Shown: positions 3,917-53,277 of the stretch, one piece after another | Position numbering within the stretch: the stretch's first letter is position 1 | How the letters are laid out: each line of letters begins with the position of its first letter | The notes under the pieces: generated by a model | The model's database searches: none | What the model was told of the DNA's origin: nothing | Seen by the model: the letters and a program-made list of their open reading frames with translations, nothing else | Position numbers and translations under genes: made by a program | NCBI RefSeq assembly: GCF_002975275.1 | Contig: NZ_PCOQ01000003.1 | Location: 124,001 to 188,000, forward strand | DNA: 64,000 nt | Reading direction: 5' to 3' | DNA from: Achromobacter sp. MYb9 | GTDB taxonomy: Bacteria; Pseudomonadota; Gammaproteobacteria; Burkholderiales; Burkholderiaceae_B

Positions 3917-4903
3917 TCAGTTGGCCGTGATGTTGGCGGCCTTGACCACCTTGCCCCAACGGTCCAATTCCGATTGCGTATACGCCCCCAGTTCCTTCGG
4001 CCCCATGAAAATGGCTTCGGCGCCTTGTTCGGCGGCCTTCTGACGGAAGGCGTCGGTTTTCATGATCTTCTGGATTTCACCAGCGATCTTGTCCACGACC
4101 GGCGCGGGCGTGTCCTTGGGCGCGTACATGGCGAACCACGACGACACGATCAGGTCGGGATAGCCGGCTTCGGCGGCGGTCGGTACGTTCGGCAGGGACG
4201 GCAGGCGGGCGTTGCCCGTGACGGCCAGCGCCCGTAGCTTGCCGGCGGCGATCTGGCCCAACAGCGGCGGTGGCGTGGTGATGGTCATGTCCACGGCGCC
4301 GCCCAGCAGGTCGTTCAACGCGGGGCCGGTGCCCTTGTAGGGGATATGCGTGATCTGCGTGCCGGCCATCTGGTTCAGCAATTCGGTGGCCACCTGTTGC
4401 AGCGAGCCGTTGCCGGACGACGCGTAGTTCAGCTTGCCCGGGTTGGCCTTGGCGTACGCCACCAGTTCCTTCAGCGAATTGATGGGCAGGTCGGGACGCA
4501 CCACAACGACTTGCGGCGCCGACAGCACGTTGGCGACGGGGGCGAAGTCCTTGATGGGATCCCAGCCGGCGGCGGGCGTTACGTGGGGCGTGATGACCTG
4601 GAAACCGGAGTATTGCAGCAGCAGCGTATAGCCGTCGGGCTTGGCGCGGGCCACCGCCTGCGCGGCGATGCCGCCGGAGGCGCCCGGCTTGTTCTCGACT
4701 ACGACGCTCTGGCCAAGCGCCGCGCCCAGGGGCTGGGCGATCAGGCGGGCGGCAATGTCGGTGGTGCCGCCGGGCGCGGCGGACACGATCAGCGTGACAG
4801 GGCGGTTGGGAAAGTCCGCTTGCGCGCTGGCGGCGCTGGCGCCGATGGTCAGCGCGGCGGCGATACCGGCGCGCAGGATGGTGGGCAGGCTTGGGAATGC
4901 CAT
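3917..4903 (-). CDS. Tripartite tricarboxylate transporter receptor (Bug/TctC family)
   Basis: Periplasmic solute-binding protein of 328 aa with a cleavable signal peptide (MAFPSLPTILRAG...SAASAQA). Typical Bug motifs are present: YPxRPVTLIV-like start of the mature protein (FPNRPVTLIVSAAPGGTTD), VVVENKPGASG, and THIPYKGTGPALNDLLGG. The start at 4903 follows AAGGAG; a longer frame to 4978 has no signal logic. No TctA/TctB membrane subunits are nearby, as is usual for the expanded Bug family of Bordetella and Achromobacter. It ends the lyase/CoA-transferase cluster, so its ligand is probably the carboxylic acid that cluster degrades. Confidence 0.92.
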   Translation of the reverse strand: MAFPSLPTILRAGIAAALTIGASAASAQADFPNRPVTLIVSAAPGGTTDIAARLIAQPLGAALGQSVVVENKPGASGGIAAQAVARAKPDGYTLLLQYSGFQVITPHVTPAAGWDPIKDFAPVANVLSAPQVVVVRPDLPINSLKELVAYAKANPGKLNYASSGNGSLQQVATELLNQMAGTQITHIPYKGTGPALNDLLGGAVDMTITTPPPLLGQIAAGKLRALAVTGNARLPSLPNVPTAAEAGYPDLIVSSWFAMYAPKDTPAPVVDKIAGEIQKIMKTDAFRQKAAEQGAEAIFMGPKELGAYTQSELDRWGKVVKAANITAN

Positions 4904-4988
4904 GGGATGTCTCCTTGGTTTTTTATAGGTGTGGTCAAAACAATCGGATGAAACGGCTGCGCTACATCGGTAGCGCACTACATCGCTG

Positions 4989-5936
4989 CTACTGCGGAAA
5001 TTTCTCGGCCAGCCAGGCGGGCGCGGTGTGGGTTGCCAGGCGTGGCCCCGCTTGCAGCAAGGCGTTGCTCAGATCGCGCTGCACCAGCGCGGGCAGGCCG
5101 CGGACGATGGCCAGCAAAGGCGCAAGCGACACGCCGGTGTCCACGCCCATGCAGGCGAACATGTGCACGAGTTCTTCGGTGTTGACGTTGCCGCTGGCGC
5201 CGGGCGCGTAAGGGCATCCGCCCAGGCCGCCGGCCGCCGCGTCGAAGCGGGTGATGCCGGTTTGCCAGGCGGCCATCGCGTTGGCCAGCGCCATGCCGCG
5301 CGTATTGTGCAGGTGCACGGTCAGCGCCACGCCGGGCAGGCGCGCGGACGCCAGTTCGCACAAGGCGGCCACTTGCGTCGGGAACGCCATGCCGGTGGTG
5401 TCGCACAGCGTGATGCCGGTGGCGCCTGCGTCCGCCAGCCGCGCGGCCAGGTCCAGCACCTGGTTCACGTCCACGTCGCCGTCAAACGGACAGCCGAAGG
5501 CGGTGGACAGTGACACGTTGCACGGCGTGCCGCTGCGGCCAGCGGCAGCCAGCACCTGCGACAGTTCCGCATACGACTGCTCGCGCGTCATGCGCAGGTT
5601 GGCGCGGTTATGCGTCTCGCTGCACGACATGACCAGGTTCATCTCGTCGGTGCCGGCTTCCAGCGCACGTTCCAGCCCGCGAATGTTGGGCACCAACGCG
5701 GTATAGATCACGCCCGGACGGCGGCGGATGCGGCGCATCACGTCCGTTGCGTCGGCCAGCGCGGGAATGGCCTTGGGCGACGTGAAACTGGTGACTTCGA
5801 TGCGCGCAAAGCCGCAGTCGGACAAGGCGTCCACGAAGGCGACCTTGTCGTCGGTGGCGACCAGGGCTTTTTCTATCTGCAGGCCGTCGCGGGGGCCGAC
5901 TTCGTTGATCTCGATCTTGGCGGGGCCGGCGTTCAT
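4989..5936 (-). CDS. HMG-CoA lyase-like enzyme
   Basis: DRE-TIM metallolyase of the hydroxymethylglutaryl-CoA lyase group (315 aa, usual length). It cleaves a 3-hydroxy-3-methylacyl-CoA-type substrate. Visible active-site residues are Arg16-Asp17 in GPRDGLQ, the metal-binding His208-x-His210 (VHLHN), and the catalytic Cys241 with Asn250 in GGLGGCPYAPGASGN. Its start overlaps the stop of the upstream CoA-transferase gene (ATGA), giving tight translational coupling. The substrate could be HMG-CoA, citramalyl-CoA or a related hydroxyacyl-CoA. The mitochondrial-type leucine pathway enzymes are absent here, so a carboxylic-acid catabolic role is inferred. Confidence 0.9.
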   Translation of the reverse strand: MNAGPAKIEINEVGPRDGLQIEKALVATDDKVAFVDALSDCGFARIEVTSFTSPKAIPALADATDVMRRIRRRPGVIYTALVPNIRGLERALEAGTDEMNLVMSCSETHNRANLRMTREQSYAELSQVLAAAGRSGTPCNVSLSTAFGCPFDGDVDVNQVLDLAARLADAGATGITLCDTTGMAFPTQVAALCELASARLPGVALTVHLHNTRGMALANAMAAWQTGITRFDAAAGGLGGCPYAPGASGNVNTEELVHMFACMGVDTGVSLAPLLAIVRGLPALVQRDLSNALLQAGPRLATHTAPAWLAEKFPQ

Positions 5937-7126
5937 GCAATCACTCCCTTGGCGCGCAGCGCGTCGCGTTGTTCGTTCGACAAGCCCGCCTGCGCCAGCA
6001 CGGCATCGGTGTGCTCGCCCAGCGTGGGCGCGCGTTCGCGCACCGCGCCGGGGTTGGTGGACAGATACGGAAAGACCGCCGGCATTTCCACTTGCACGCC
6101 GGCGGCGGATGCCACGGTCGTGATGGCATTACGGGCCCGGTAGTGCGGGTCGGCGGCGATATCCGCCACCGAATAGATGCGGCCCGCCGGCACGTCGGCT
6201 TCGCGCATCGCGGCCAACACGTCGTCGATAAGCCGGGTCTGTGTCCACGCGCCGATGGCGGCATCGATTTCCGCGACGCGCCGGGCGCGGCCGTCGTTGT
6301 GCGCCAAGGCCGGGTCCTGGCCCAGGTCGTCGCGGCCAATGCGTGCCATCAGGCGGGTGTAGATGGCGTCGCCATTGCCGGCGATGAGCACGTAGCCGTC
6401 CTGGCAGGGATAGGCATTGGACGGCGCAATACCCGGCAACGCGGCGCCGGCCGGCTCGCGTACGGCGCCAAACACGGAATATTCGGGCAGCAGGCTTTCG
6501 CTAAGGTTGAACAGGCTTTCGTACAGCGCCGCGTCGATCACCTGGCCCACGCCGCCACGCGCGTCGCGCTGGTACAGCGCCATCATCACGCCCAGCGCGC
6601 CATGCAGGCCCGCGATGGTGTCGCCCAACGACAAGCCCGCCCGCACCGGCGCGCGGCCCGGTTCGCCGTTCAGGTAGCGCAGCCCGGCCATGGCCTCGCC
6701 GATGGCGGCAAAGCCCGGTTCGCGCGCCTTGGGACCGGTCTGGCCGTACCCCGAGATGCGCAGCATGATCAGGCGCGGGTTCAGTGCATGCAGGGTTTCC
6801 CACGACAAACCCCATTTTTCCAGGGTGCCGGGGCGGAAGTTCTCGATCAGCACGTCGGCCTGTTGCGCCAGGAGGCGCACGATGTCCTGGCCTTCCTGCT
6901 GGCGCAGGTCCACGCACACCGACTGCTTGTTGCGCGACTGCGCTTCCCACCACACGGACGTGCCTTCGTGCAGCAAACGCCATTTGCGCAGCGGGTCGCC
7001 TTGTCCGGGGGGCTCGATCTTGATGACCTGCGCGCCAAAATCCGCCAGGGTCTTGGCGGCGAACGGCCCTGCTATCAGTTGACCCAGCTCCAGCACGCGG
7101 ATGCCAGCAAGAATCTGCCCAGCCAT
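5933..7126 (-). CDS. Family III CoA-transferase (CaiB/BaiF)
   Basis: Transfers CoA between carboxylic acids through an aspartyl-CoA intermediate. The 397-residue length is typical. The N-terminal Rossmann-like part (VLELGQLIAGPFAAKTLADFGAQVIKIEPP) and RAGLSLGDTIAG are present, the latter placing the catalytic Asp at position 169 as in formyl-CoA transferase. The start at 7126 has a near-ideal AAGGAGG. It is the first enzyme gene of the cluster, followed by the overlapping lyase and then the Bug receptor, which suggests acid uptake, CoA activation and cleavage in one operon. Donor (often succinyl-CoA) and acceptor cannot be read from sequence. Confidence 0.92.
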   Translation of the reverse strand: MAGQILAGIRVLELGQLIAGPFAAKTLADFGAQVIKIEPPGQGDPLRKWRLLHEGTSVWWEAQSRNKQSVCVDLRQQEGQDIVRLLAQQADVLIENFRPGTLEKWGLSWETLHALNPRLIMLRISGYGQTGPKAREPGFAAIGEAMAGLRYLNGEPGRAPVRAGLSLGDTIAGLHGALGVMMALYQRDARGGVGQVIDAALYESLFNLSESLLPEYSVFGAVREPAGAALPGIAPSNAYPCQDGYVLIAGNGDAIYTRLMARIGRDDLGQDPALAHNDGRARRVAEIDAAIGAWTQTRLIDDVLAAMREADVPAGRIYSVADIAADPHYRARNAITTVASAAGVQVEMPAVFPYLSTNPGAVRERAPTLGEHTDAVLAQAGLSNEQRDALRAKGVIA

Positions 7127-7209
7127 TACGCCTCCTTGGCGACACTCGATATTGATAGGCGGCAGTGTGCCCGCAAAGCGGCGCCCGGCGGAATGGAAAA
7201 TCGGGGAAA

Positions 7210-7237
7210 GGGGGGTTCCTGGAACGAGAAACCCCCG
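7210..7237 (-). terminator. Hairpin downstream of LysR gene
   Basis: Arms GGGGGTT (7211-7217) and AACCCCC (7230-7236) pair perfectly around a 12-nt loop. Read on the minus strand the hairpin is followed by a pyrimidine-rich stretch with TTT and TTTT runs. It lies 25 nt past the LysR stop and before the CoA-transferase start, so it may separate the two transcripts. Confidence 0.5.
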
Positions 7238-7261
7238 GGCAAACCCGCAGCGGCAATCGCC

Positions 7262-8158
7262 TCAGTGATCGCCGCGCAGATGCGCCAGCAGCAGGCGGGC
7301 GCCAACGGTCAGCGTGTCGGCATCGCGCACGCCCAGCAGCAGCCAGCGGCGCGCCCATTCGTCGGTCAGGGGGATAAGTTTGATCGGCATCGACCGTGCA
7401 TGCGGCTCGGCGGCGATGCGCGGCAGGATGCCCACGCCACGGGTCGCCGCCACCATGCGGCAGATGGCGTCAAAGCTGCGCACCTGGATGCGCAAGCGCA
7501 TCGCCCGGCCCAGACGGCCGCTTTCGTCGGACAGGCGGGTCGCCAGCGACGTGGCCGGGGGCAGGCCGACGTAGTCGTAGGCCAACGTGTCCGCAAACGC
7601 CACCTGCGCCTCGGCCGCCAACGGATGGCGCTGCGGCACGATCAGCACCAGTTCATCCAGCCGATAGGGAAAGGTCGACAAGCCGTCGGCCGGCGTGCGG
7701 TCGGCGAATACGCCAATATCCGCGCGGTTCTCAAGCACCGCGGTGACGATGTCGCTGCTGTTCTGCTCTTCCAGGTCGATGCGCACGGCGGGATGGCCAT
7801 CCATGAAGGCGGCCAGGTCTTCGGGCAGAAACTGCGTCAGCGACGAGGTATTGGCGGCGATACGCACCTGGCCGCGCACGCCTTGGGCGAAATCCGACAG
7901 CGCGCCCGTCATCTGCTCTACTTCCTGCAACACGCGAAGCGCGTGGACCAGGCAGGCTTGGCCCGCGTCGGTCAGCTCCACCCCGGCCGCGTTGCGGTAC
8001 AGCAGCGCGGTGCCCAGGGCGGCCTCCAGGTCCGAAATGCGTTTGCTGGCCGCCCCAACCGCCAGATGCGACTGGCGTGCGCCGGCCGAGATGCTGCCCT
8101 GGCGCGCAACGGAAACAAACAGGGCAAGGGTGACGAGGTCGATGCGAGCAAGGTTCAT
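7262..8158 (-). CDS. LysR-family transcriptional regulator
   Basis: A 298-residue LTTR. The N-terminal winged helix-turn-helix (about 1-60: LALFVSVARQGSISAGARQSHLAVGAASKRISDLEAALG) is followed by a periplasmic-binding-like effector domain. The ATG at 8158 is used because the upstream in-frame codon at 8185 is TTG and precedes the canonical LTTR start. It lies just upstream of, and in the same direction as, the CoA-transferase/lyase/Bug cluster, so control of that cluster is likely. The inducer is unknown. A hairpin sits between it and the CoA-transferase gene. Confidence 0.88.
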   Translation of the reverse strand: MNLARIDLVTLALFVSVARQGSISAGARQSHLAVGAASKRISDLEAALGTALLYRNAAGVELTDAGQACLVHALRVLQEVEQMTGALSDFAQGVRGQVRIAANTSSLTQFLPEDLAAFMDGHPAVRIDLEEQNSSDIVTAVLENRADIGVFADRTPADGLSTFPYRLDELVLIVPQRHPLAAEAQVAFADTLAYDYVGLPPATSLATRLSDESGRLGRAMRLRIQVRSFDAICRMVAATRGVGILPRIAAEPHARSMPIKLIPLTDEWARRWLLLGVRDADTLTVGARLLLAHLRGDH

Positions 8159-8274
8159 GGAGAAATTCGGCGCGGAGTATGCCAAGGCGGTGGGGCTGAT
8201 TGCTATGACCGCGTCGCCAATTCAATAATTATGTCCGAATTTCTCCCTTTGCCCCGATGCGCGCAAGCGCCAGG

Positions 8275-47801: not shown

Positions 47802-48929
47802 CTACGCCTGGAAGAAGAATCGGTCGGGACGGCAGGGATCAAGGGCACTGGACGCGTTATTGTCCAGGATTTCTTCTGAGGCAAGGCGGCCCACTATGGC
47901 CGCCAACGTAACGCCAGGATGCATGACGCAAACGTAAACGCCGCCGATATTTGGCAGATAACCGATGAAGGGAATGCCGTCGGCGGGTATGGGTCTAAGC
48001 CCGACACAAGCGGATTCCAGCTCAATGGAGGCGGCCCCATGGAGCTCGTTCTTTATTGCCTTGGCCGTTCGTAGCGCGATGGCTGCTGGCTGGTTCTCCA
48101 CGGCGTTGTCCAGGTAGTCTTCCGCCGCCAGCAACGCGCCGTCCAAGCACTGCCTGACTTCCATTTCAGGGCTGGATATCAGGGTTCGTACAAGACCGGG
48201 GGGCGCCTTGTAACGGATGAAAATGGACGGAGAAGCCGCTATCGGAAGCGGCGCACCAAGCATGTTGGTCAGCTTTGTGATGCCGGTTCCCGCCGCCAAT
48301 ACGACAACATCGGCATTGATGACTCCCATTGCGGTTTCCACGCCGGTCACAGTGGCCCCCTGGCGTGCAAAGCCGAGAACGCGTGTCTGGGTGAAAATCC
48401 TGGCCCCATTCGCTTGGGCGCCAGCGATCAACGCATGTGTCGCCGCAACCGCGTCCAGCGCCCCTTCTTCTTCCGCATAGGAAGCATAGTGAGGCGGATG
48501 CTTGAGGTTCGGCTCAAGGTCGACGATCCGTGATCGGGACACTCCATTTTTGGAGGTCGGATTACCTGAGCCTGGTAGCGCTTCACTCGACGTCGAGCGA
48601 TAAGATAACGCGCCCGTCCATCGAATTTTCATGTCGGGCAATTGGGTTTCGAGTCGCCGGTACGCGTCAATGGCCGCACCGCGCAATGGCGCGATGGGGT
48701 CGGGTTCGGGGTGCGAGGCGTTAAGCCATGCGAACGAGCTTCCTGTTACCCCAGACGCGATGTCTTCGGCCTCGACCACGGTGACGTCCGCGCCTTTACC
48801 TGCCAGATGATAAGCAACGGACGCCCCCACGATGCCTGCGCCGATGACAACAACTCGTTTATCCAGACCGTTTCCCACACTTACCTCCACACCTTCGAAC
48901 TGTCGATGGTACACAGCTGGATGATTCAT
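47802..48929 (-). CDS. FAD-dependent oxidoreductase (D-amino-acid/glycine oxidase family)
   Basis: A 375-residue DAO-family enzyme. The FAD-binding motif VVVIGAGIVGASVAYHLAGKGADVTVVEAEDIASGVTG has GAGIVG at 30-35. The substrate domain includes GLRPIPADGIPFIGYLPNIGGVYVCVMHPGVTLAAIVGRL. Its ATG (48927-48929) overlaps the stop of the LysR gene (ATGA). The frame is open much further upstream, but that DNA belongs to the LysR gene in another frame. It probably oxidises an amino acid or amine; the partner regulator and the divergent lyase/CoA-transferase fusion suggest one pathway. Substrate unknown. Confidence 0.88.
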   Translation of the reverse strand: MNHPAVYHRQFEGVEVSVGNGLDKRVVVIGAGIVGASVAYHLAGKGADVTVVEAEDIASGVTGSSFAWLNASHPEPDPIAPLRGAAIDAYRRLETQLPDMKIRWTGALSYRSTSSEALPGSGNPTSKNGVSRSRIVDLEPNLKHPPHYASYAEEEGALDAVAATHALIAGAQANGARIFTQTRVLGFARQGATVTGVETAMGVINADVVVLAAGTGITKLTNMLGAPLPIAASPSIFIRYKAPPGLVRTLISSPEMEVRQCLDGALLAAEDYLDNAVENQPAAIALRTAKAIKNELHGAASIELESACVGLRPIPADGIPFIGYLPNIGGVYVCVMHPGVTLAAIVGRLASEEILDNNASSALDPCRPDRFFFQA

Positions 48930-49855
48930 GGCTTGAGCGCCGCGGCGGTGTTGCCGTGACGCGCCACATTGGCCAGGTGTTCCAGAAGCACCTGCGCGGC
49001 GGGCGACAGATTTTCTTCGTCGCGAAAGCACAAGGTGAAACGCCGCTCGGCCCAGGCATCGGTCAATGGAATCACGATCAATCCCGTTGCGTGCGCATAG
49101 GGCTGCGCGACTTCGCGGGGAACGATGGTTATGCCCAGGTTCGCGCGAACCACACGCAAGGCCGAATCGAAGTTCGACACGATCACCCGATGCAGTAAAG
49201 GTTTTCCGGCTTGCGCGGCGGCCCGGTGCAACATGACTTGCACGGAGCTTGCGACGGGCATGCCCACATGTTCGTAATCTAGCGTTTGGCTGAACTGCAA
49301 CGTGGATTCCCGTGCCAGGGGATGGGCAGGGTGCACGACCATCGCCAGGTGATCGTTGCGGTATGGGCGGGACTGCAACCCGTCCAGAGGCGATGCGTCC
49401 CAGCAGATACCCAACGACGCCACGCCTTCCTTGATGCCGCGGATCACTTGGTGGCTCAAGCCTTCTTCCATGTCGACGCGGATGCTGCGATGACGCGGGT
49501 CTTGCAGGAACATTGCCACATCTTCGGCTAGCGATTCGGCCAGCACGGAGGACGTGGCCAGTACACGGATCTGGCCCCGCAGCCCATGGGAATAGGCGGA
49601 CATGTCGCGTTCGATCCGGGCCGTGCTGGTCATGATCGCGCGGGCATGTTCCAGCAGCGTTTCCCCGGCTGGCGTGGGCTCCATGCCGTGTTTGCGTCGG
49701 GTCAGGAGTTTGGCGCCCACGGCGCTTTCCAGCTGGGCCAGACGCTTGCTGATGGCGGATCCGACGATGTTGGCGTTCTCGCCCGCCCGGGCAATGTTGC
49801 GGGTTTCGCAAACGGCCACGAATAGCCGCAATGAAGTCAGGTCCAGGTCGCGCAT
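48926..49855 (-). CDS. LysR-family regulator
   Basis: A 309-residue LTTR. The helix-turn-helix is LRLFVAVCETRNIARAGENANIVGSAISKRLAQLESAVGAKLL; the effector domain has the LTTR-8 style GLRGQIRVLATSSVLAESLAEDVAMF. It is translationally coupled to the FAD oxidoreductase gene and divergent from the fused lyase-CoA-transferase gene. A 23-bp palindrome lies between, so it probably controls both. It is the same LTTR type as the regulator at 7262, which sits beside the unfused lyase/CoA-transferase pair. Confidence 0.9.
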   Translation of the reverse strand: MRDLDLTSLRLFVAVCETRNIARAGENANIVGSAISKRLAQLESAVGAKLLTRRKHGMEPTPAGETLLEHARAIMTSTARIERDMSAYSHGLRGQIRVLATSSVLAESLAEDVAMFLQDPRHRSIRVDMEEGLSHQVIRGIKEGVASLGICWDASPLDGLQSRPYRNDHLAMVVHPAHPLARESTLQFSQTLDYEHVGMPVASSVQVMLHRAAAQAGKPLLHRVIVSNFDSALRVVRANLGITIVPREVAQPYAHATGLIVIPLTDAWAERRFTLCFRDEENLSPAAQVLLEHLANVARHGNTAAALKP

Positions 49856-49906
49856 GGGAAGTCCCGTTTACAGGAAAGTCATCAAACCCTGCCTAAGATA
49901 TTCCGT

Positions 49907-49929
49907 TTTGGAACGTTTTGCATTCCAAA
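49907..49929. promoter_or_regulatory. LysR operator candidate TTTGGAA-N9-TTCCAAA
   Basis: A perfect 23-bp inverted repeat in the gap between the divergent LysR/oxidoreductase and fusion/Bug operons, 51 bp from the LysR ATG and 70 bp from the fusion ATG. No other candidate operator is evident in this gap. Confidence 0.6.
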
Positions 49930-49998
49930 TGATCGTTATTCGGCCGATATGTGAAATCTACACTACGCCTATTCCTGCCTTATCGGACGAAGCCATTC

Positions 49999-52233
49999 AT
50001 GTTTGCTACCGAACTTCCTACTGGCTGGCCTGCCCGCGCGATCTTGCGCGAGGTGGGTTTGCGCGACGGCCTGCAAAGCCTGGCAAGGGTGGTGCCCACC
50101 GCCATCAAGCGTGAGTGGATTGCGCAGGCCTATGCCGCGGGACTCCGCGAAATCGAGGTTGGCTCGTTTGTACCGGCGCGCCTGCTGCCGCAATTGGCCG
50201 ACACGGCCGAGCTGGTGGCCTATGCCCGGACGTTTCCCGGTTTGCGGGCGACGGTGCTGGTGCCCAACCTGAAAGGGGCGGAACGCGCCATCGACTCTGG
50301 CGCGGACCTAATGGTCGTGCCGTTGTCGGCCAGCCATGCCCACAGTCTGGCCAATCTGCGCAAGACGCCCGACGACGTGGTCAAGGAGGTCTCCAGAATT
50401 CGCGCGGCGCGCGATGCCGCGGGTTCCCGGATGTTGCTTGAAGGCGGCGTGGGCACTGCGTTCGGCTGCACGCTACAGGGGCATGTGGAGCCGGCGGAAG
50501 TGCTGCGATTGATGCAGGCGTTGCTGGATGCGGGCGTTGATTGTGTCAGCCTGGCCGACACCGTGGGGTATGCGGATCCCCTGATGGTGCGCCGGCTGTT
50601 TGAAGCTGCGCGCCGCATTGCCGGCGACCGCCTGACGTGCGCGCATTTTCACGACACGCGGGGCCTGGGACTGGCCAATGTGATGGCGGCGCTGGAAACC
50701 GGCATCACGCGATTCGATGCCTGTCTGGCGGGAATCGGCGGGTGTCCCCATGCGCCGGGCGCCAGTGGCAACGTGTCCACCGAAGACGTGGCCTATCTGC
50801 TGGGAAGCATGGGCGTGGACACGGGGCTGGACATGCCGCGGCTGCTGGCCTTGCGTAAACAGGCCGGCGTCTGGCTGGAAGGGGAAACGCTGCGCGGATC
50901 GATTGCGCAAGCAGGGTTGCCGAAGATCTGGAAGGGCGCGGCGCCGGCCGCGGACGACGCTGCCGCCGCTTCCGCACCCGCGCCGGAACATAACGGCGCG
51001 TCGTGCGGCGACGCCTCTGCGCCCGCCGCACCGGCGGTTGGCAGGACACGCCGTTTGCCGTTGGCCGGTATCCGTGTGGTGGAATTCACCCACATGGTGA
51101 TGGGGCCTACCTGCGGTCTGGTGCTGGCGGACCTGGGCGCCGAGGTGATCAAGGTCGAACCCATCGAGGGCGACCGTACCCGTCATCTGCTGGGCGCGGG
51201 CGCGGGTTTTTTCCCGATGTTCAACCGGAATAAGAAGTCCATTTCATTGGATCTGCGTAGCCCTGCCGGCGCCGACGCCGCGCGCAAGCTATGCGCCAGC
51301 GCCGATATCGTGGTCGAGAACTTTCGGCCCGGCGTCATGGCCAGATACGGTCTGGACTATGCATCGTTAAGTCAGCGAAATCGCGGTCTGATCTATGTCA
51401 GCTGCAAGGGGTTCTTGCCCGGCCCGTACGAACAACGCACCGCGCTGGACGAAGTCGTGCAAATGATGGGCGGCTTGGCCTACATGACGGGACGCCCGGG
51501 CGACCCCTTGCGCGCCGGCTCAAGCGTGAACGACATCATGGGCGGCATGTTTGGCGCGATAGGCGCGATGGGTGCGCTACAGGAACGCGCGGTGACGGGC
51601 CAGGGACAGGAAGTGCAATCGGCGCTGTTCGAAAATAACGTCTTCCTGGTCGGGCAACACATGCTGCAATACGCGGTCACCGGCCAGGCCGCCGCGCCCA
51701 TGCCCGAGCGCATTTCCGCCTGGGCCTTGTACGACGTCTTTACCGTGAAGGACGAGGGCCAGATCTTCCTGGCTGCCGTCAGTGACGCGCAATGGATCAC
51801 GTTCTGCGATGCCTTCGGGTTTGACGATCTTAAGCACTCGCCGCATCTCAAAACGAATAACGACCGCGTGCGAGCGCGCCCGGAACTGCTGCCCGATCTG
51901 CGGACGCGCTTGAAGGGGTACGAGGTGGACGAATTGGCGCGCGTCTTCGAAAAGAACGGCTTGCCGTTCGCGCCCATCGTCCGGCCGGAAGCGCTTTTTG
52001 ACGACCCGCATCTGCGCGCCACCGGTGGCCTGGCCAATATACGGTTGACCGATGGCGAACGCGCCGGGCAGCAAGCGAAGGTGACGTTGTTTCCGATCAC
52101 CATGGACGGCGCCCGGCTGGATGTGCGGCTGCAACCGCCCATCATGGGGGAACACACCACGGAATTGCTGAGACACGTGGGTTACCCCGACGAGAGTATT
52201 CACAAGCTGCGCGAGCAAGGCGTCATCCACTGA
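49999..52233 (+). CDS. Fused HMG-CoA-lyase-like / family III CoA-transferase
   Basis: One 744-residue chain with two complete enzymes. Residues 12-300 are an HMG-CoA-lyase-like domain: Arg22-Asp23 (GLRDGLQ), His216-x-His218 (AHFHD) and Cys249 (GIGGCPHAPGASGN). After an Ala-rich linker (312-353) comes a CaiB/BaiF CoA-transferase (354-744), with GPTCGLVLADLGAEVIKVEP and the catalytic Asp512 in VNDIMGG. Both active sites look intact. The ATG at 49999 is preferred; the GTG at 49951 overlaps the regulatory region. A Bug receptor gene follows. The reaction expected is CoA transfer then C-C cleavage in one protein; the acid is unknown. Confidence 0.93.
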   Translation: MFATELPTGWPARAILREVGLRDGLQSLARVVPTAIKREWIAQAYAAGLREIEVGSFVPARLLPQLADTAELVAYARTFPGLRATVLVPNLKGAERAIDSGADLMVVPLSASHAHSLANLRKTPDDVVKEVSRIRAARDAAGSRMLLEGGVGTAFGCTLQGHVEPAEVLRLMQALLDAGVDCVSLADTVGYADPLMVRRLFEAARRIAGDRLTCAHFHDTRGLGLANVMAALETGITRFDACLAGIGGCPHAPGASGNVSTEDVAYLLGSMGVDTGLDMPRLLALRKQAGVWLEGETLRGSIAQAGLPKIWKGAAPAADDAAAASAPAPEHNGASCGDASAPAAPAVGRTRRLPLAGIRVVEFTHMVMGPTCGLVLADLGAEVIKVEPIEGDRTRHLLGAGAGFFPMFNRNKKSISLDLRSPAGADAARKLCASADIVVENFRPGVMARYGLDYASLSQRNRGLIYVSCKGFLPGPYEQRTALDEVVQMMGGLAYMTGRPGDPLRAGSSVNDIMGGMFGAIGAMGALQERAVTGQGQEVQSALFENNVFLVGQHMLQYAVTGQAAAPMPERISAWALYDVFTVKDEGQIFLAAVSDAQWITFCDAFGFDDLKHSPHLKTNNDRVRARPELLPDLRTRLKGYEVDELARVFEKNGLPFAPIVRPEALFDDPHLRATGGLANIRLTDGERAGQQAKVTLFPITMDGARLDVRLQPPIMGEHTTELLRHVGYPDESIHKLREQGVIH

Positions 52234-52278: not shown

Positions 52279-53277
52279 ATGAAGACACACGACATATCTT
52301 GTACTCGGCGTGGGATGCTGGGCGTCTTGGGGGCGGGCATGCTGGGGGCCGCTCTGCCGCTGCGCGTGGCGCGCGCGCAAGACAGTGCCCGGCCAGTACG
52401 GTTGATTCTGCCCATCAGCGTGGGCTCTGGCGTGGACACGATCGTGCGTTCCGCGGGGCCGGCGTTGAATCGGGCGTTCGGGCAGTCGGTGGTGGTGGAA
52501 AATCAGCCGGGTGCTGGCGGTATCCTGGGCACCTCGGCCATTGTGCGCGCCACGGCCGACGGCCACACCCTGGGCGTCGTGTCCAATAACCACGTGATCT
52601 TTCCCAGCGTGCTGAAATCCGTGCCGTTCGACCCCATCCAGGACATCACGCCCATTTCCGTCATTGGCACCACGCCGCTGCTTCTGGTCGTGAATCCGAC
52701 AAAGCTGCCCTACAGCAATGTGCGCGATCTGGTCGCGGCCTTGCGGGCGAAGCCCGACGCCTATAACTACGGATCATCGGGCAATGGCACCATCCTGCAC
52801 CTGGGTTGCGAGCTGTTCCTGCAGCAAAACGGACTGAAAATTCGCCACATCCCCTACAAGGGAACGGGCCCCATGGTTACCGACATCATGAGCGGGCAGG
52901 TTGATTTTGGCGTGACCTCGCTGCCGTCCATCTTGCCGCACCTGAAAAGCGGCGCGCTGAAGGCCATCGGCGTGGGCAGCAAGGAACGTAGTCCGGCAGC
53001 GCCGGACATTCCCACTATTCGTGAACAGGGCATGCCCGACTACGAAGTGGAAGGCTGGTTTGCCGTGATCGGCCCCGCGAAGTTGCAGGCGGATCAAGTG
53101 CGGCGCGTGTACAAGGCCTTCGAGGCGGCGTACCGCGACCCCGAAACAAAAAAGGCCATGGACCTGCAGGGCAACAGGATCACCATGCGGGATTCCGCCG
53201 ATACGGTCGAGTACTTCAAGAGCGAGACCCGAAAATATGCGCAAATCGTGAAGAACGCGAATATCGAACTGCAATAA
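52279..53277 (+). CDS. Tripartite tricarboxylate transporter receptor (Bug/TctC), Tat-type leader
   Basis: A 332-residue periplasmic binding protein. The leader holds a twin-arginine-like motif (CTRRGMLGVLGAG) before a hydrophobic stretch and an AxA-type site (RVARAQDS). Mature sequence shows Bug motifs RPVRLILPISVGSGVDTIVR, VVVENQPGAGG and RHIPYKGTGPMVTDIMSG. It follows the fusion gene by 45 nt and is presumably co-transcribed with it. Its ligand is likely the acid handled by the fused enzyme (inferred). Confidence 0.92.
   Translation: MKTHDISCTRRGMLGVLGAGMLGAALPLRVARAQDSARPVRLILPISVGSGVDTIVRSAGPALNRAFGQSVVVENQPGAGGILGTSAIVRATADGHTLGVVSNNHVIFPSVLKSVPFDPIQDITPISVIGTTPLLLVVNPTKLPYSNVRDLVAALRAKPDAYNYGSSGNGTILHLGCELFLQQNGLKIRHIPYKGTGPMVTDIMSGQVDFGVTSLPSILPHLKSGALKAIGVGSKERSPAAPDIPTIREQGMPDYEVEGWFAVIGPAKLQADQVRRVYKAFEAAYRDPETKKAMDLQGNRITMRDSADTVEYFKSETRKYAQIVKNANIELQ

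Follow-up and report, generated by a model that had tools for sequence, protein, structure and literature searches.

What is the function of an enzyme that carries, in a single chain, a lyase resembling 3-hydroxy-3-methylglutaryl-CoA (HMG-CoA) lyases and a family III CoA-transferase? This question is raised by a gene on the forward strand (49999..52233) of a 64,000-nucleotide stretch from Achromobacter sp. MYb9 (contig NZ_PCOQ01000003.1, positions 124,001 to 188,000), to which we refer as the window and which had been the subject of an earlier note made from the sequence. In light of the genes that accompany related lyase-transferase pairs in other loci, we predict with good confidence that the fused enzyme acts on a 2-substituted malate and, with a confidence somewhat above even, that this acid is an arylmethylmalate, likely 2-(4-hydroxybenzyl)malate (eucomate), which would be converted to 4-hydroxyphenylpyruvate and acetyl-CoA.

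Architecture and recurrence of the fusion

The open reading frame encodes 744 amino acids, or 760 if translation starts at an alternative GTG codon 48 bases 5' of position 49999. Residues 16-286 (50044..50856) match the Pfam family HMGL-like with 138.5 bits against a cut-off of 29, and residues 355-720 (51061..52158) match CoA_transf_3 with 364.9 bits against a cut-off of 23.3, covering positions 1-366 of the 366 in the model. The two domains are connected by an Ala/Pro-rich linker (residues 315-349, 50941..51045), which is predicted to be disordered (predicted local distance difference test, pLDDT, below 50) and is located in a region containing 16 alanines among 46 residues (307-352). The catalytic residues E18, R22, D23, E53, H216, H218, C249 and N258 of the lyase and the nucleophile D512 of the transferase are each retained. 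When the lyase domain is aligned with solved HMG-CoA lyases, R22, D23, H216, H218, C249 and N258 coincide with their RDG, H-x-H-D, GGCP and GASGN motifs; D512 aligns with an aspartate of human SUGCT. The protein thus comprises two complete enzymes joined by an Ala-rich linker, as the earlier note had described. An origin of the fusion in a frameshift or in an error of sequencing or assembly is unlikely, since it is intact in a relative of 83% identity from the same genus (G032; loci L009/L112) and in many protein clusters, and the stop or frameshift in the linker that had been named as its refutation consequently finds no support.

A database search with the 744-residue protein, which the note had proposed as a way to find further fusions, returned a list of 120 protein clusters, of which 111 contain both domains, including the window's own protein (P0001), and a search with the fused protein of locus L210 as query returned mostly the same clusters. 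According to the note, the fusion is not known as a characterised enzyme, and while our literature searches, at the level of titles, equally contain no report of it, the fusion itself is not rare. In 85 of the 551 plasmid records with a match, a single location spans 80% or more of the query, and in the 40 listed plasmid rows the annotation, where present, mostly describes two adjacent genes, with one fused gene in Roseomonas. The clade of the window, defined by a lyase score of at least 405 bits and comprising 109 loci, is found in 15 of 37 genomes of the genus. It is fused in two of them (G032 and the window's genome, G000), and lyase and transferase are neighbouring genes of unchanged order in the other 13, one of which (G009) contains the transferase in two frames. 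In a sample of 299 genomes from a single family, 71 contain a lyase of this clade.

In a tree of 176 pairs, of which 111 are fused, 55 adjacent and 10 divergent, at least 24 changes between fused and unfused forms are found, and well-supported branches leave no alternative for 17 of these, which rules out a single origin of the fusion within the limits of a tree that was built with FastTree only and returned long-branch warnings. The sample is biased towards fused forms, as the protein search admits only lengths near that of the query, a bias that does not create changes. Judged from these sequences, a two-gene operon has recurrently taken on a fused form: its already paired enzymes were joined or came apart many times, which provides a clear example from nature of how the partners in an operon become a single protein. 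The repeated fusion and fission supports the view that the product of one domain is the substrate of the other. The note's proposal of a two-step enzyme for CoA activation and cleavage is strengthened by genes that are recurrently neighbours or fused, whereas its suggestions for the substrate proved only partly right.

Genes linked to the pair and nearest known proteins

A gene for 4-hydroxyphenylpyruvate dioxygenase (HPPD) lies in the fetched stretch of 18 of the 109 clade loci, compared to none of the 90 control loci, which consist of other lyase/transferase clades or of transferase loci without this lyase and include some short contigs and some loci from the same genera as the clade loci. 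The controls do not include loci L001-L027 or those fetched via an aconitase gene (L136-L166, L168, L169); one HPPD-linked locus (L167) was fetched in the same way, and without it the count is 17 of 108. The linked HPPD has the same orientation in 17 of the 18 loci, and in six loci (L135, where it is split in two, L167, L185, L199, L210 and L236) 45-96 bases separate it from the match to the lyase or transferase. All of the seven linked HPPD proteins that were scanned singly score above the curated HPPD cut-off. In L185, the genes for HPPD, homogentisate 1,2-dioxygenase (HmgA) and fumarylacetoacetase (FAH) are inserted between lyase and transferase, in L201 the same three genes come after the pair, in L210 HPPD directly follows the fused gene, and L177 and L250 contain HPPD, FAH and MaiA. 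FAH was found once in the controls (L068). On a clade tree of 103 rows, which excludes L113 with its transferase in two frames and five loci lacking a near full-length 400-bit transferase match on the lyase strand, HPPD linkage changes 13 times. Genes using the expected 2-oxo acid are in this way linked to the pair within the clade, the window's own locus excepted, and the simple reading of their presence is that the lyase makes 4-hydroxyphenylpyruvate. For a retro-Claisen lyase that releases this compound together with acetyl-CoA, the activated acid would be 2-(4-hydroxybenzyl)malate, that is eucomic acid.

A second independent hint to a substituted malate is provided by a single-chain gene of the aconitase superfamily encoding about 660 residues, which is linked in 13 of the 109 clade loci and found twice in the controls (L031, L133). 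In the protein of L133 (10220-12214), a small (C-terminal-type) domain precedes the large one in a single chain, and the aconitase-type protein matches the isopropylmalate dehydratase and aconitase families of NCBIfam below their cut-offs. In Roseomonas the gene lies directly downstream of the fused gene, the two overlapping by 4 bases, and in Methylobacterium it is linked to the fused gene. A relative (42% identity) in Streptomyces adjoins LeuA and isopropylmalate dehydrogenase, and in the window's genome the gene resides on another contig (C6:200112-202091). Within the 37 genomes of the genus, 11 contain both the pair and the aconitase-type gene, four the pair alone and four the aconitase-type gene alone (Fisher p 0.0017, uncorrected for kinship, from sets compiled by eye that include some incomplete genomes). 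Enzymes of this type shift water between carbons of 2- and 3-substituted malates and need a hydroxyl next to a carboxyl group. For the relatives of the protein in G021 and in G034, the match is split into two segments. In four loci from Comamonadaceae (L128, L162, L163, L164) the aconitase-type and Bug genes are followed by a short gene of the RraA family, possibly a keto-acid aldolase or decarboxylase. In another clade, the transferase gene is accompanied by those for two-gene LeuC/LeuD enzymes in 10 loci, nine of which also contain the lyase, and in L053 and L082 the LeuC, LeuD, lyase and transferase genes all have overlapping starts. As LeuC/LeuD belong to that clade and occur in the window's clade only in L240, we have rejected a route from citraconate through these two-gene enzymes for the latter.

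The nearest solved structures fit a substituted malate, with the lyase closest in sequence (6nds) containing CoA and 3-methylmalate and with succinyl-CoA:(R)-benzylsuccinate CoA-transferase being among the nearest transferases. The best structural match of the transferase domain is human SUGCT (entry name succinate--hydroxymethylglutarate CoA-transferase), and its identity to SUGCT (9br6/9br7) and to the benzylsuccinate CoA-transferase BbsEF (9fol, 9fn0) is 27-28%. Its scores stay below the cut-offs of the curated equivalogs for succinate--glutarate CoA-transferase (NF052585, 243.5 against 750 bits) and for the formyl-CoA (201.2 against 504.2), mesaconate (187.6 against 700) and carnitine (92.4 against 413) enzymes. 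In transferase-paired lyases the residues GC are mostly followed by Thr or Ser (GC[T/S]), whereas four solved HMG-CoA lyases contain a Pro at this position (GCP); our guess is that this loop sets the specificity of the lyase.

Proposed reaction and competing explanations

In the mechanism that we propose, the acid would be taken up through the TctC/Bug protein of the adjacent gene with the help of permeases encoded elsewhere. As expected from the respective families, CoA would be transferred from a donor such as succinyl-CoA to the C4 carboxylate at Asp512, and the ester would undergo metal-dependent retro-Claisen cleavage at R22, D23, H216, H218, C249 and N258, in effect the alkylmalate synthase reaction of the same superfamily run in reverse. 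The 2-oxo acid would then enter the homogentisate pathway via HPPD, and the genes for HPPD, HmgA and FAH are all found elsewhere in the window's genome (C41 and C6). A separate aconitase-type enzyme is predicted to convert 3-substituted malates or unsaturated acids to the 2-substituted form. We see even chances that these parts jointly describe a widespread bacterial pathway for arylmethylmalates (eucomic and piscidic acid), which would lead via a repeatedly fused bifunctional enzyme to 4-hydroxyphenylpyruvate and into the homogentisate pathway as a reversal of benzylmalate synthesis, and that many genes of Burkholderiales assigned as HMG-CoA lyases beside CaiB encode substituted-malyl-CoA lyases. 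If true, this would name an enzyme for the breakdown of eucomic and piscidic acid, explain the pairing of an 'HMG-CoA lyase' with CaiB in soil and plant bacteria, and supply, ready for use, a bifunctional enzyme that cleaves a C-C bond of substituted malates.

Several observations weigh against this proposal. No HPPD or aconitase gene adjoins the window's own locus, HPPD is absent from the fetched stretch of 91 of the 109 clade loci, some of these stretches being short, and it is located more than 3 kb away in L207 and L214. The window's subclade shows HPPD linkage in four of its 67 rows and the sister subclade in 14 of its 36, for which reason the window's enzyme might prefer another substituent, and the substituents of citramalate, benzylmalate and piscidate may remain alternatives. 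Of 16 HPPD-linked genomes, six contain a further HPPD outside the locus, G572 contains one on another contig and G626 two in the locus, while in eight no HPPD other than the linked one was found, which may there simply be the enzyme of the tyrosine pathway placed nearby. The lyase domain also exceeds the cut-off of the hydroxymethylglutaryl-CoA lyase subfamily of NCBIfam (PRK05692, 266.7 against 246 bits), and four of the 109 clade loci contain malate synthase G instead of HPPD.

Among the acids named in the earlier note is HMG itself, for which the transferase would make HMG-CoA from free 3-hydroxy-3-methylglutarate and the lyase would produce acetoacetate and acetyl-CoA. This is decidedly unlikely, since aconitase-type enzymes need a hydroxyl beside a carboxyl group, which HMG does not offer, and since both these isopropylmalate-isomerase-type genes and the HPPD/homogentisate neighbours would be left unexplained; the score of the transferase far below the succinate--glutarate CoA-transferase cut-off and the Thr or Ser in place of Pro after GC are further points against a lyase-transferase pair for HMG. 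It would account for the subfamily score of the lyase and the structural match of the transferase to SUGCT, and an excerpt of PMC11343714 describes HMG use by the bee symbiont Snodgrassella alvi, where the first two steps are unannotated. The adjacency of HPPD, HmgA, FAH and MaiA could alternatively reflect the end products of tyrosine degradation, with the transferase activating acetoacetate from fumarylacetoacetase and the lyase acting in the same pool. We consider this highly improbable, because the use of acetoacetyl-CoA requires no lyase and because the aconitase-type genes, the TctC or MFS importers and the pairs without tyrosine genes would have no explanation.

The remaining alternatives retain the proposed chemistry with a different substituent. 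A small 2-alkylmalate such as citramalate, perhaps generated from citraconate by the aconitase-type isomerase, would be cleaved to pyruvate and acetyl-CoA. The suggestion of citramalate in the earlier note thus captured the type of substrate, and pairs of several clades have isopropylmalate-isomerase-type genes linked to them, but the presence of HPPD, HmgA, FAH and MaiA next to pairs in the window's clade best suits an arylmethyl product, leaving citramalate rather unlikely. Excerpts of two reports are compatible with it: citramalate is a root exudate (PMC3176199), and the itaconate cluster PA0878-PA0883 in Pseudomonas putida conferred no growth on (R)-citramalate or citraconate, which leaves room for a citramalate route (PMC9875883). 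Piscidate (2-(4-hydroxybenzyl)tartrate) as main substrate would yield 4-hydroxyphenylpyruvate and glycolyl-CoA and overlaps with the assignment to eucomate, as it involves the same enzyme and mechanism and one extra hydroxyl. The malate synthase G genes, found on the opposite strand near the pair in L129, L190, L211 and L231, would be expected if glycolate or glyoxylate were formed, but they occur together with HPPD in none of the 109 loci and the route would not need an aconitase-type gene, so that we regard piscidate as the main substrate as unlikely. Eucomic and piscidic acid both occur in plants, and according to an excerpt of PMC3176199 pigeon pea exudes piscidate to mobilise phosphate in the soil.

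Locus organization, related modules and known systems

In the window, the fused gene is preceded by a divergent LysR regulator (48926..49855, reverse strand), with which it shares an intergenic region that presumably contains the promoters (49856..49998), and followed by a TctC/Bug substrate-binding protein presumed to be part of the same operon (52279..53277, forward strand). This layout is common to the clade, with a similar LysR gene near the lyase in 104 and a similar TctC/Bug protein in 80 of the 109 loci. A second, unfused set on the reverse strand of the window (3917-8185) encodes a LysR protein, a CaiB-type transferase (5933-7126), an HMGL-like lyase (4989-5936) and TctC (3917-4978). 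Its lyase and transferase are 43% and 33% identical to the fused protein, as in a paralogous module. Three further neighbourhoods of lyase and transferase are found in the same genome (C7:66946-69053, C1:564326-567557, C19:9777-13357), the second of which (L109) is placed next to Achromobacter anxifer L069 in the tree of 176 pairs. The organism accordingly encodes about five such modules, perhaps with a different acid as the substrate of each.

Related modules elsewhere come with other partners. In sphingomonads (L053, L056, L076), genes for PuuE/allantoinase-like and isochorismatase-like proteins, LeuC, LeuD, lyase and transferase are found together, which looks like a route from substituted maleimides via maleamates and maleates to malates. 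Six loci (L036, L040, L041, L042, L043, L045) encode a transferase 63-71% identical to that of the window with no lyase in the fetched stretch; its neighbours are a LysR gene and, on the opposite strand, malate synthase G. In L130, L132 and L134 of another clade, lyase and transferase are accompanied by an IclR regulator and an Amidohydro_2 (PF04909) protein, perhaps a hydratase of another type or a lactonase in place of the isomerase. Snodgrassella alvi is a candidate place for a true HMG-specific pair.

Searches of titles and abstract starts identified no HMGL-type lyase linked with a CaiB-type transferase for such acids, and title-level searches on eucomic and piscidic acid identified no bacterial pathway for either. 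While all parts belong to known families, we have found no description of a benzylmalate-type route to 4-hydroxyphenylpyruvate and acetyl-CoA. Compared to HMG-CoA lyases (human HMGCL, 2cw6; bacterial 6nds, 1ydo, 2ftp), the lyases described here are fused to or in an operon with a CoA-transferase, mostly differ in the GCP motif and have neighbours suggesting substituted malates. 2-Alkylmalate synthases, such as those for isopropylmalate, citramalate and methylthioalkylmalate, belong to the same superfamily as the lyase of the fused enzyme, which would operate in the reverse direction. Such synthases, including benzylmalate synthase, hydrolyse the CoA ester and do not require a CoA-transferase. 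From the family III CoA-transferases SUGCT and BbsEF, the transferase is separated by its low identity and by scores below each equivalog cut-off tested. The lyase of the Ict-Ich-Ccl pathway of itaconate and citramalate degradation is CitE-like. According to excerpts of PMC12290011 and PMC9875883, this pathway likewise combines a CoA-transferase with an acyl-CoA lyase, the latter acting on citramalyl-CoA, whereas the lyase of the fused enzyme is HMGL-like and hydration is here predicted to take place on the free acid.
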